Below, one piece after another: positions 27,916 to 33,423 of a DNA stretch of 64,000 nucleotides. This stretch comes from Streptomyces tsukubensis (GTDB lineage Bacteria > Actinomycetota > Actinomycetes > Streptomycetales > Streptomycetaceae). A model generated the notes under the pieces. The model did not search any database, had not been told where the DNA came from, and saw nothing but the letters and a program-made list of their open reading frames with translations. Positions within the stretch are counted from its first letter, which is position 1. The number at the start of each line of letters is the position of its first letter. Where the stretch lies: positions 6,532,501 through 6,596,500 of the forward strand of contig NZ_CP020700.1 of NCBI RefSeq assembly GCF_003932715.1. The letters are read 5' to 3'. Both the position numbers and the translations under genes were made by a program.

Positions 27916-28719
27916 TCAATGCCCCCGATGCGCCGTACGGGTATCCGCACGCTCCCGCCGGCCGCTGGTGAGCGCCCGGCGCAGCAGGGGGTCCTCGATG
28001 GCGTCGGGACCGGCGACCGCGATCGCGGTGAGCCGTCCCCGTTCGGTGCCGTCGGCCGTGGTGATCAGCCCGGCCAGCAGCCGTCTGCCTTCGGGGGAGG
28101 CCCAGCCCAGATAAGGCCGTACCTCGGCCCGCCCGATCAGCAGGGCGGTCAGGGTGAGCAGCAGCGGCAGCGCGAACCAGGGGAGCAGCGCGCTGCCGGG
28201 AGCGCCCCCGCCGGGCAGGGCGAGGGCGGCGACCGTCAGCACGGGGACGGCGAGGGCGGCGGCGCGGACCTGGCGTACGGCCGCGGCGGAACGGGCCCGG
28301 GAGGTGTCGGGGACGGCGAGCCCGGCCCCTTCCAGCGACGCGGCGATGGCCCGTACGGCATCGGCGGATCCGGCCGCCCGCCGTACCGCGTCCGTACGGG
28401 CCTGGTGGCCGGCCGGTCCTATGGCCCGTATCACCGAGCGCTCCAGCACATTGTCGGTGTCCGCGTCGACGACGGTCGCCCAGCCGGTGTGCGCGAGCAG
28501 CAGTGCCCGGCGGCGGTGCATGGCGACCAGGGTGACGTCCATGACCCGGCCGGGTCCGCCCGCGAGGAAGGCGGCTTCGAGGAGGGTCAGTTCGCGGTCC
28601 CTCGGCCGGGTGGAGCGGCGGGCCTGGTGCGGGGCGGCGGCCACGGCGGCTCGGCAGAGCCGCACACAGGCCGCGCCCGCGGCGGCCCAGGCGAGGGCCA
28701 GGAGGAGGATCCGGAGCAT
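27916..28719 (-). CDS. TIGR04222-type membrane protein paralogue without Gly/Cys tail
   Basis: A 267-residue protein with the same plan as the three upstream paralogues: N-terminal membrane helix (residues 3-22), the conserved cytosolic segment TLLEAAFLAGGPGRVMDVTL with paired basic MHRRRALLLAH, then two adjacent hydrophobic helices (about 150-195). It ends in a basic, Ala/Arg-rich stretch (RRALTSGRRERADTRTAHRGH, last 20 residues) and lacks the final hydrophobic segment and the Gly/Cys tail. It may be a degenerate or specialised copy. It lies 114 bp downstream of the tailed paralogue. Confidence 0.72.
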   Translation of the reverse strand: MLRILLLALAWAAAGAACVRLCRAAVAAAPHQARRSTRPRDRELTLLEAAFLAGGPGRVMDVTLVAMHRRRALLLAHTGWATVVDADTDNVLERSVIRAIGPAGHQARTDAVRRAAGSADAVRAIAASLEGAGLAVPDTSRARSAAAVRQVRAAALAVPVLTVAALALPGGGAPGSALLPWFALPLLLTLTALLIGRAEVRPYLGWASPEGRRLLAGLITTADGTERGRLTAIAVAGPDAIEDPLLRRALTSGRRERADTRTAHRGH

Positions 28720-28744
28720 TGGCGTGTTGTACGCGAAGAGGGGG

Positions 28745-28797
28745 CCCGGCCGCCACGGGTTTTCCGCCGCCGTCCGGCGTGGGGGGTGGCGGCCGGG
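28745..28797 (-). terminator. Hairpin between two TIGR04222 genes
   Basis: A perfect 12-bp inverted repeat (CCCGGCCGCCAC, 28745-28756, with 28786-28797) spans a 29-nt loop, 37 bp beyond the stop codon of the upstream tailed gene. It could end or attenuate transcription. Confidence 0.55.
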
Positions 28798-28833
28798 AGG
28801 TTCCGTACGGCTCCCGCCGCCCGGCGTCCGGTG

Positions 28834-31136: not shown

Positions 31137-31160
31137 GCCGGACTGTGCCCCGGAGTGCGG

Positions 31161-32117
31161 TCAGCCGCAGCCGCATCCCCCGCAGCCGCCGCACCCCCCG
31201 CCGTCGCCGCCACTGCTGCAGGAACCGCCGCCCCCGCAGCTCGAAGTGCCGCGGTTGTCCTGGCTCCCGCCGCAGCTCGTCGCGGTGCCCCCGCCTCCGC
31301 ACCACGACACCTGCTCCCCGGCGAGTGCCGGGCCGGCGGCGACCGCGACGAACGCCGTGGTGGCCGCGGCGACCAGCAGGGTGCGGATCGTCTTGTCCTC
31401 GACCCCGCCCAGCCCCATGATGGCGACCCGCTCCGCCGGGGTGGCCGGATGCCTGTTCTCCGAACGGTGGAAGGAGAGCGCCCTGGCACCGTTCCCGGTC
31501 AGCCGGGCCGCGACGTTCTGGCCCACGACGACGGCCAGGAACCAGCCCACCAGCAGCCCGGGGCCGACCCGGAGCAGGAAGAGATCGCCCACCTTGCTCC
31601 AGTCGGTGTCGCCGACGAACTCGGTGACGACGTAGGCAGCGGGTATCGCCAGCAGGAACACGATCTTCTGGATCCTGGCCCACCGGGCGAGGACCCGCAG
31701 ATCCCGGCTGGGGGCGACCAACAGGCCGTTGCGCGCCAGACCGTGGCCGATCCGCTGGACCGCCTCCGCACGTGCGGCCGTGTGCCGCAGGGTGTTCAGC
31801 GCGCCGTTCGGCGCGCTCTCGGCGGCCTCCAGGACGGCCCGTTCCACGGGGTCGTGGGCTTCGGCGCGCTCGATGGTGACGAGGCCGGGCTCGGCGATCC
31901 TGATCCGTCCGTCGTCGCTCATCGTGGCGAGCGCGGCGTCCACGGTCCGCAGCGGGCCACCGTTGAGGAACGCGGCCTGGTAGGGGTCGTCGATCTTCAC
32001 CTGCCGGCCGTCACCCTGCCGGTGGCGGCGGCGGGATACGACGCTCTCCACGACCAGCCAGACCGTGAGCACACCCACGACGGCGTTCACGAGCACGGCG
32101 ACGGTACCGATGGCCAT
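31161..32117 (-). CDS. TIGR04222-type membrane protein with Gly/Cys tail (8 Cys), coupled to the DUF692 gene
   Basis: A 318-residue protein whose ATG lies 4 bp after the stop of the DUF692 gene, with AGGAGGT inside that gene's end, so it is translationally coupled. N-terminal helix (about 3-22), conserved segment PYQAAFLNGGPLRTVDAALA, central helices (VFLLAIPAAYVVTEFV; LLVGWFLAVVVGQ), then a hydrophobic run ending in AAGPALAGEQVSW that looks like a signal-peptidase-type boundary. The tail (31164-31301, about 46 residues) has 8 Cys, including the final CGGCGGCGCG. It is the paralogue with the shortest Cys spacing and the closest link to the modifying enzyme. Confidence 0.8.
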   Translation of the reverse strand: MAIGTVAVLVNAVVGVLTVWLVVESVVSRRRHRQGDGRQVKIDDPYQAAFLNGGPLRTVDAALATMSDDGRIRIAEPGLVTIERAEAHDPVERAVLEAAESAPNGALNTLRHTAARAEAVQRIGHGLARNGLLVAPSRDLRVLARWARIQKIVFLLAIPAAYVVTEFVGDTDWSKVGDLFLLRVGPGLLVGWFLAVVVGQNVAARLTGNGARALSFHRSENRHPATPAERVAIMGLGGVEDKTIRTLLVAAATTAFVAVAAGPALAGEQVSWCGGGGTATSCGGSQDNRGTSSCGGGGSCSSGGDGGGCGGCGGCGCG

Positions 32118-32121
32118 GCGG

Positions 32122-33423
32122 TCACCTCCTGACGAGTGCGGCGCGTGCCGCACGGACGATCCGGGCCGACCGGCGCCGGGGCCGTAGCCCGGCCCGCTCC
32201 TGCCACCAGTGGGTCAGTTGTCTGCGGACCCGCTCGTCCGCGGGCCGCCCGGCGGCCAGCAGATGCTCGGCGAAGGCCATCGCGTCGCGCCGGTATCCCG
32301 CGTGCATCGGGCGGCCCCTGGCGTAGGCGAGGAACATGCTCCGGTAGTCGCGGCCCAGGATCTCCGGCAGCTGCGGCGCGATCCTGGCCACCACCTGCGC
32401 CCGCTTCGCCGCCAGCGCCCGGCTCTGCACCCGCAGCCGGCGCTGGTCGAACTCCTCGGGCGCGGGCGTCCCGGCGACCAGTGCCGACAGCAGCGCGGCC
32501 TGCGCTATGCCCAGCCGCTCCCGCGCGTCCGCCGGGGCCGGTGCCACAGCCGGGGGCCGGGGGGCGGGAGCGCCGGTGGCCCGCCCGGCCGGAGGTGCGG
32601 ACCGCAGTACCGTACGGACGGACTCCAGCTCCGCCACCAGCTCGGCCTCCGGCGGGAAGTCGTCGTCCCGTTCCAGCAGCACCCCGGGCGGCGAGATCCG
32701 GGAGGTCAGTTCGCGCAGCACGTCGAGCACCGGCTCGGACACCGGATGGGCGTGGGTGTCGTGCCAGACCCCGTCGCGCTCCACCCCGCCCGCGACATGG
32801 ACGTACGCGATGGCCTCGACCGGCAGTTCGTCCAGGGCCTTCGCCGGGTCCTCGCCGCGGTTGACGAAGTTGGTGTGGAGATTGGCGACGTCGATCAGCA
32901 GGCGCACCCCGGTCCGCTCGACCAGCTCCGCCAGGAACTGCCCCTCGGTCATCTCCTCACCGGGCCAGGAGATCAGCGCCGCGATGTTCTCCAGCGCCAG
33001 CGGCACCGGCAGCCCGTCCTGCGCGATCCGCACGTTCTCGCAGAGGACGGCCAGAGCGTCCCGGGTCCGCGGCACCGGCAGCAGATGACCGGCCTCCAGC
33101 TGCGGTGAGGCCGTGAGCGCACCGCCCGCTCGGACGAACGCGATGTGCTCCGTGACGAGCGGGGAGCCGAGGAACTCCGCACGCTCCGCGAGGTCCGCCA
33201 GCTTCTGCTCCGACGGCCGGTCGGCGCCGCCGAGGCCGAGGGAGACACCGTGCGGGACGACCGTGACGCCCCGGGCGCGCAGCCGCTCCAGCGACGCGGG
33301 CAGATGGCCTGGGCAGACGTTCTCGGCCACCACCTCGACCCAGTCGACACCGTCGAGGCGTTCCACGGTGTCCGCGATCTCGGGCCGCCAGCCGATGCCG
33401 GTGCCCAGTGTGCCGTGCCGCAT
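32122..33423 (-). CDS. DUF692/MNIO family oxidative enzyme with fused C-terminal helical domain
   Basis: A 433-residue protein. Residues 1-275 form the DUF692 TIM-barrel of the multinuclear non-haem iron oxidative enzymes (MbnB, TglH, ChrH, ApyH and bufferin enzymes). Candidate metal ligands are in place: His58 (PHGVSLG), His93 (VTEHIAF), Glu145 (LALENIA), Asp178 and His183 (IDVANLHTN), His209 (YVHVAGG), His221/Asp222 and His224 (HDTHAHP), Glu251. After a Pro/Ala linker, residues 300-410 form a helical domain (ALLSALVAG..., LGRDYRSMFLAYARG) resembling the separate partner proteins (HvfC/BufC type) that bring substrate to these enzymes. First gene of the cluster; ATG preceded by GGGGAGGA. Confidence 0.85.
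   Translation of the reverse strand: MRHGTLGTGIGWRPEIADTVERLDGVDWVEVVAENVCPGHLPASLERLRARGVTVVPHGVSLGLGGADRPSEQKLADLAERAEFLGSPLVTEHIAFVRAGGALTASPQLEAGHLLPVPRTRDALAVLCENVRIAQDGLPVPLALENIAALISWPGEEMTEGQFLAELVERTGVRLLIDVANLHTNFVNRGEDPAKALDELPVEAIAYVHVAGGVERDGVWHDTHAHPVSEPVLDVLRELTSRISPPGVLLERDDDFPPEAELVAELESVRTVLRSAPPAGRATGAPAPRPPAVAPAPADARERLGIAQAALLSALVAGTPAPEEFDQRRLRVQSRALAAKRAQVVARIAPQLPEILGRDYRSMFLAYARGRPMHAGYRRDAMAFAEHLLAAGRPADERVRRQLTHWWQERAGLRPRRRSARIVRAARAALVRR

Follow-up and report, generated by a model that had tools for sequence, protein, structure and literature searches.

A candidate MNIO system acting on Cys-tailed TIGR04222 membrane proteins in Streptomyces tsukubensis

MNIO (DUF692) enzymes bind 2-3 Fe and use O2. 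To our knowledge, their characterised substrates are peptides or small secreted proteins. The pairs MbnB/MbnC (methanobactin) and TglH/TglI have short peptide substrates and a separate partner protein. Here, we describe an MNIO gene of Streptomyces tsukubensis that is followed by genes for four TIGR04222 membrane proteins, three of which end in Gly/Ser/Cys tails. The locus lies in a stretch of 64,000 nucleotides (contig NZ_CP020700.1, positions 6,532,501 to 6,596,500), called the window below.

The closest described clusters are those of Antoine et al. (2025; PMC12452194), who collected TIGR04222 proteins around MNIO genes, reported C-terminal Ser/Gly regions with Cys residues and named subsets of these proteins as putative MNIO substrates. 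The passages of that paper on which we draw place the tails in the periplasm, give "Adjamnio-II (peptidyl-tRNA hydrolase) - MNIO - TIGR04222" as a row of Table 2, count 490 of 1372 TIGR04222 genomes without MNIO, and describe many TIGR04222-MNIO clusters as apparently having no partner gene, with PME-type 2 in at least 10%.

In the window, the MNIO protein carries what is probably a partner domain of its own, and the Cys tails accompany MNIO across genomes. From these sequence comparisons, we consider it likely that the partner-carrying MNIO acts on membrane-anchored proteins after translation, oxidising Cys residues of their Gly/Ser/Cys tails.

The Cys-tailed proteins and the MNIO enzyme

The window holds a six-gene run on the minus strand, in the order MNIO, four TIGR04222 membrane proteins and a TAP-like hydrolase. 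The features of the first five genes are as follows.

32122-33423, minus strand: MNIO protein, 433 aa (PF05114, 266.6 bits against a family cut-off of 25)
32605..33402, minus strand: MNIO (DUF692) catalytic TIM-barrel domain, residues 8-273
32125..32601, minus strand: C-terminal extension of MNIO, residues 275-433, probable DUF2063-like partner domain (PF26136, SCO6045-like C-terminal)
31161-32117, minus strand: TIGR04222 copy 1 with Cys tail, 318 aa (NCBIfam, 122.9 bits)
31164..31301, minus strand: tail of copy 1, Gly/Ser/Cys, 46 aa with 8 Cys, after Trp-Cys
29998-30972, minus strand: TIGR04222 copy 2 with Cys tail, 324 aa from its ATG (NCBIfam, 94.9 bits)
30001..30156, minus strand: tail of copy 2, Gly/Cys, 52 aa with 6 Cys
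28834-29871, minus strand: TIGR04222 copy 3 with Cys tail, 345 aa (NCBIfam, 107.7 bits)
28837..29049, minus strand: tail of copy 3, Gly/Ser/Cys, 71 aa with 9 Cys
27916-28719, minus strand: tailless TIGR04222 paralogue, 267 aa, with Cys-x3-Cys in the first hydrophobic helix (NCBIfam, 114.6 bits)

All four TIGR04222 proteins score above the NCBIfam cut-off of 43 (94.9 to 122.9 bits), and copy 1 starts 4 bp past the MNIO stop. The AlphaFold2 model of copy 1 has helices at residues 2-33, 138-169 and 174-203 and a disordered tail, and we read its helix-helix-strand-strand unit at residues 45-82 as winged-helix-like.

Counted from the Cys of the common Trp-Cys junction, the tails consist largely of Gly, Ser and Cys (37 of 46 residues in copy 1, 46 of 52 in copy 2, and 65 of 71 in copy 3). 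In 6,065 residues encoded by other genes of the window, Cys makes up 0.76%; with this background, the Cys counts have a binomial chance of 2e-9, 3e-6, and 4e-9, respectively, and Ala, at 14.8% of the same residues, occurs only once, twice, and twice. Each tail uses the four Gly codons and several Ser codons, a mixture indicating that the tails are not a simple DNA repeat. The Trp-Cys junction is kept in at least 90% of a 59-sequence Streptomyces alignment (the 4 window proteins and 55 of the 120 listed homologues) and is mostly missing from tails outside Streptomyces. Profile matches and residue counts bear out what a preliminary description of the window, made from the sequence alone, had reported, namely three Gly/Cys-tailed paralogues with 8, 6, and 9 Cys and a Trp-Cys junction. 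The candidate substrates are membrane proteins of 318 to 345 aa, not the short precursors of ribosomally synthesised and post-translationally modified peptides (RiPPs).

Two more divergent TIGR04222-like proteins, with short Gly tails holding 1 and 2 Cys, are encoded in the same genome (G000:C1, about 6,906,600-6,908,400; L080:6633-8403), about 340 kb from its only MNIO match. At another locus (L108:9189-10768), the second TIGR04222 copy is apparently frame-disrupted, with the Cys tail and the head in different frames.

The MNIO protein has a TIM barrel with conserved His/Glu/Asp metal-site residues. Nine motif residues, which we take to be the iron ligands, are identical in 92 of 92 rows. Its closest relative among the homologues listed is 98% identical and also comes from S. 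tsukubensis, and its best NCBIfam match is the bufferin maturase NF050167 (185.3 bits, below the equivalog cut-off of 310). The assignment to DUF692/MNIO given in the preliminary description stands with the PF05114 match, although the C-terminal partner-like domain had been overlooked.

This C-terminal extension is all-helical in the AlphaFold2 model, with a block at residues 301-410 of pLDDT 83-97, and is annotated in a protein database, among the 120 listed of 7721 homologues, with PF26136, a family named "SCO6045-like C-terminal". DUF2063 was matched by 12 of 49 stand-alone relatives at E <=1 (best 1.5e-4), and the next family by 2 of the 49. The profile-profile comparison (hhalign) with five bufferin-type partners gave 85 collinear columns and a score of 28.0 (E 0.0014, probability only 17.5%), where two controls scored 21.0 and 20.6. 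The C-terminal 159 residues are thus probably a DUF2063-like partner domain, and probably too short for the DUF2063 part plus the second RiPP recognition element (RRE)-fold domain of type 1 partners.

Elsewhere among the actinobacteria, this domain has a gene of its own immediately 3' of MNIO. Counting as separate an own frame at most 900 bp downstream, we found the partner-like domain with 76 of the 77 MNIO genes fetched together with TIGR04222 (42 fused, 34 separate, 1 none); for 21 MNIO genes without TIGR04222 in the fetched stretch, it was fused in 4, separate in 9, and absent in 8. Streptomyces has both states, fused as in the window and separate in G379, G673, G646, G565, G667, and G632. 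Among 50 loci drawn by MNIO similarity, several of which match earlier contigs in length, so that they are not an independent sample, 48 have the domain on the same strand, the exceptions being a betaproteobacterium and Roseospirillum. Such a near-universal domain is a possible answer to the puzzle of missing partner genes, as it is put in the cited passages of PMC12452194.

Expression data exist for SCO6045 of S. coelicolor, which would be a fused MNIO if the name of its C-terminal family is a guide. In the cited parts of PMC4991794, SCO6045 is up 3.01-fold under H2O2, alongside sulfate-to-cysteine genes, and is deregulated in an hsr mutant, where the H2O2 induction was not seen. If SCO6045 is indeed a fused MNIO enzyme, this response would fit a redox or cysteine link.

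Co-occurrence of Cys tails and MNIO across genomes

TIGR04222 and MNIO were surveyed in a phylum draw of 398 actinobacterial genomes and a class draw of 394 genomes. At most 7 candidates were scored per genome, so that the TIGR04222 counts are lower bounds. In the phylum draw, MNIO is present in 36 genomes and TIGR04222 over its cut-off in 30, 29 of which have MNIO; the remaining genome (G013) has only fragments at a contig end. The class draw yielded TIGR04222 over the cut-off in 115 genomes, and MNIO is found in 19 of the 20 new Streptomyces genomes with TIGR04222 and in only 38 of the 70 new genomes outside Streptomyces, which confirms the loose TIGR04222-MNIO association described in the passages cited from PMC12452194.

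A Cys tail was defined as at least 2 Cys and at least 50% Gly, Ser, and Cys in the last 50 residues, a criterion chosen after the tails had been viewed. The non-Streptomyces table holds 77 of 80 genomes with TIGR04222 over the cut-off (phylum draw) or at E <= 1e-9 (class draw); G429 and G438 (no listed coordinates) and G546 (29 bits against a filter of 30) were left out, and 51 phylum-draw genomes with only sub-cut-off TIGR04222 matches were kept out. In this table, a Cys tail occurs in 44 of 47 genomes with MNIO and in 3 of 30 without it (Fisher p 3e-14, kinship ignored), so that tail and MNIO agree, as both or neither, in 71 of the 77. Within one family (f91), the corresponding numbers are 15 of 16 and 1 of 18 (p 2e-7, kinship ignored). 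Including Streptomyces, 72 of the 75 scored Cys-tailed TIGR04222 proteins belong to MNIO genomes and 63 sit in a fetched stretch that also has MNIO. The preliminary description had named as the outcome that would speak against it a survey with such proteins mostly in genomes without DUF692, and this was not found.

The three MNIO-negative genomes with a Cys tail were all kept in the count. Judged by eye, two of them are artefacts: the frame of G421 runs off the contig and its tail end has no Cys, and that of G501 is probably not the right one. The 4-Cys tail of G442 was judged genuine; it lies close to the end of its contig, so that an MNIO farther downstream could be missing.

When only proteins with Gly/Ser/Cys-rich last 50 residues are compared, Streptomyces included, the Cys tail is present in 72 of 77 from MNIO genomes and in 3 of 12 from the others (p 6e-7, kinship ignored). 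Nine of these 12 MNIO-negative Gly/Ser-rich ends have at most one Cys, a typical ending being GGGGGDGGGGGGGD. Loci L181, L183, L189, L190, L191, L192, and L194, MNIO-negative and from one genus, encode TIGR04222-like Gly/Asp/Ser tails with zero Cys in the last 30 residues.

A similar tail also occurs on another anchor. At five Frankia/Pseudofrankia loci, some of them probably from the same genomes, the MNIO gene is followed by a gene for a small one-helix protein with a Gly/His/Cys tail and no TIGR04222 head, and the same small Cys-tailed form is found in G458, G494, G529, and G547. G383 has it as well, there behind the partner gene. Of the 50 loci drawn by MNIO similarity, 36 have Cys-tailed TIGR04222 proteins, 5 the small single-helix form, and 9 neither. 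Single-helix Gly/His/Cys-tailed proteins are encoded after MNIO at L207, L216, L220, L227, and L275-L279; at L207, the small-protein frame (2934-4142) comes before the partner frame (4146-4751).

In the proposed mechanism, the head (TIGR04222, replaced by one hydrophobic helix in some relatives from Frankia) would anchor the substrate and may aid recognition, and the C-terminal DUF2063-like domain would present the tail to the barrel. There, the multi-iron site would use O2 to turn a number of Cys in each tail into heterocycles derived from Cys or groups of the thioamide type, and one enzyme would serve all three tails of the window strain. Tethered to the membrane, the product would probably buffer soft (copper-like) metals or redox state, in most cases on the cytoplasmic side. 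More tentatively, and as a possibility that we would not call probable, this may be a widespread actinobacterial system: an MNIO fused to its partner or paired with it would convert many Cys on interchangeable Gly/Cys tails into a dense metal-binding or redox array on the inner membrane face, a modified membrane proteome and not a secreted peptide. If intact membrane proteins are indeed modified on many tail Cys, the chemistry of membrane surfaces comes within the reach of MNIO enzymes. With its fused partner domain, the enzyme could be tested directly as one polypeptide, and setting MNIO-positive against MNIO-negative tails points to residues worth testing.

Possible other roles of the tails, and their topology

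Several observations weigh against modification of the tails by MNIO. The assignment of the partner domain has weak scores, and residues 275-433 gave no match in local Pfam and NCBIfam scans. One of the 77 MNIO loci (G596; L232) encodes two Cys-tailed TIGR04222 proteins and yet has no recognised partner downstream. A tree of 94 heads gave just 5 independent pairs on supported branches, which are too few, and the paired test had a median p of 1. Only 12 of 34 MNIO-negative proteins have a Gly/Ser-rich end at all (22 have none), and a single genus (g255) accounts for 9 of the 12. The contrast with Gly tails lacking Cys therefore draws on few lineages, which makes tail modification slightly less likely and unmodified tails slightly more so. 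Outside Streptomyces, the MNIO-positive genomes G488, G422, and G534 have no tail that reaches the Cys-tail thresholds. In Streptomyces, 39 of the 40 genomes with TIGR04222 have MNIO and only 19 a Cys tail, 20 of the 39 MNIO-positive genomes showing none in the fetched stretches, and four genomes (G022, G153, G565, G646) have MNIO and the partner domain with no TIGR04222 in the fetched stretch.

In G422, the Cys-rich stretch of the TIGR04222 protein (L198:2020-3036) continues into a part that, judged by eye, is similar to the partner domain, and the only MNIO match of this genome is partial and lies away from that gene.

The Streptomyces genomes without Cys tails retain the enzyme and the partner domain, mostly also the tailless paralogue and often DUF4142. 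Four of them encode, at an unlinked site, a TIGR04222-like protein whose Gly-rich end has one Cys close by (L081-L084). The enzyme may act on another substrate in these genomes. Their retention of enzyme and partner also counts in favour of unmodified tails, which would bind metal or take part in disulfide/thiol redox reactions as they are, with MNIO encoded nearby through a shared metal or redox stress and acting on another protein. We regard this as unlikely, given the agreement of tail and MNIO in the non-Streptomyces table and the Cys tail that accompanies MNIO on another kind of anchor.

Less probable still is that the conserved substrate in Streptomyces is the tailless TIGR04222 paralogue, instead of or besides the tails. 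This paralogue is retained at loci without Cys tails. Of 16 aligned rows, 15 have the CxxxC motif in its first helix, and the one without it (L081) is a shorter, unlinked protein; a third Cys is present in 13 of the 16 rows and not in the window protein (27916-28719). However, two MNIO loci (L067, L068) have no tailless paralogue either, one Streptomyces genome (G591) has a tailless TIGR04222 protein and no MNIO match, and intramembrane Cys would be hard to reach. Possibly, the CxxxC is a separate metal or redox site, if not an alternative substrate. That the tails are neutral, functionless low-complexity expansions would fit their length and Cys count, which differ between copies and species, but is very improbable in view of Cys counts far over background, mixed Gly/Ser codons, the Trp-Cys kept in Streptomyces, and MNIO-negative Gly-rich tails that are mostly Cys-poor, if chiefly in one genus.

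Of 66 Cys-tailed proteins scored, 60 have more basic residues after the first helix than before it, and 4 have equal numbers. Of 68 proteins, 43 have three hydrophobic segments, 15 have four, and 10 have two. With an outside N-terminus, three segments would leave the tail on the cytoplasmic side, the expected location of the enzyme, and hydropathy and charge thus hint at a cytoplasmic tail in most proteins scored, contrary to the published periplasm. A segment starting past about residue 212 is found in 14 of the 68 (within the window, in copy 1 only) and could be a further membrane helix, and 29 of the 68 have a hydropathy peak of at least 1.6 within the last 75 residues ahead of the tail; with these proteins, the published periplasmic placement is possible.

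Neighbouring genes and comparison with known systems

The genes on either side of the MNIO and TIGR04222 genes are as follows.

26189-27799, minus strand: TAP-like alpha/beta hydrolase, last gene of the run (PF08386, PF00561)
33626-34405, minus strand: DUF4142 protein, 202 bp upstream of MNIO (PF13628, 66.3 bits)
34632 to about 35420, minus strand: PTH2-type peptidyl-tRNA hydrolase, start uncertain (PF01981, 39 bits)

The preliminary description had MNIO heading the run; its MNIO gene, TIGR04222 genes, and tails hold up, but MNIO is not necessarily the first gene, with the DUF4142 and PTH2 genes upstream on the same strand. The gene family of the TAP-like hydrolase is present in 20 loci of the first draw and that of DUF4142 in 15; what ties the hydrolase to the MNIO system is its position, and what ties DUF4142 to it is its conserved position. 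Beside the cluster, positions 20014-25938 hold hemE (URO-D), a protoporphyrinogen-oxidase-like gene (PF01593), and a HemQ-type gene of the chlorite dismutase family; the latter two are in the same place in the Streptomyces loci whose stretch extends that far.

Gly/Ser tails at the C-terminus are also a feature of DUF2207 membrane proteins (PF09972), and at least 31 sub-cut-off TIGR04222 matches of the phylum draw, paired by eye, lie beside a same-strand DUF2207 match. These proteins differ in their N-terminal DUF2207 domain, and the three tails viewed have 0, 1, and 0 Cys.

The window MNIO shares 20-27% barrel identity with the enzymes of the MbnB/MbnC and TglH/TglI pairs. Bufferin systems, which consist of a Buf1/Buf2 precursor, an MNIO, and a DUF2063-RRE partner, are similar in combining MNIO with a DUF2063-type partner and in having several substrate Cys. 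They differ in that the window MNIO scores below the maturase cut-off, the putative substrates are membrane proteins of 318-345 aa, and the partner-like domain is fused, probably without room for a full second RRE. A fusion of MNIO with its partner is not mentioned in the cited passages of PMC12452194, PMC13174530, and PMC12710340, which is no proof of its absence.

With the clusters of PMC12452194, as the cited passages describe them, the locus shares the protein families, the Gly/Ser/Cys C-termini, and the gene order including the peptidyl-tRNA hydrolase (adjamnio-II). It differs in the partner-like domain, fused or adjacent in 76 of 77 cases here, and in a hydropathy that favours a cytoplasmic tail in most proteins. 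The genome comparison supports the idea of the preliminary description that the tails are enzyme substrates, through the co-occurrence of Cys tail and MNIO, the partner domain, and the second anchor, but this central hypothesis is not new, having been proposed in the same passages. What is added here is the near-universal partner-like domain, the clade-structured contrast between Cys tail and MNIO, the second kind of anchor, and the doubt about topology.

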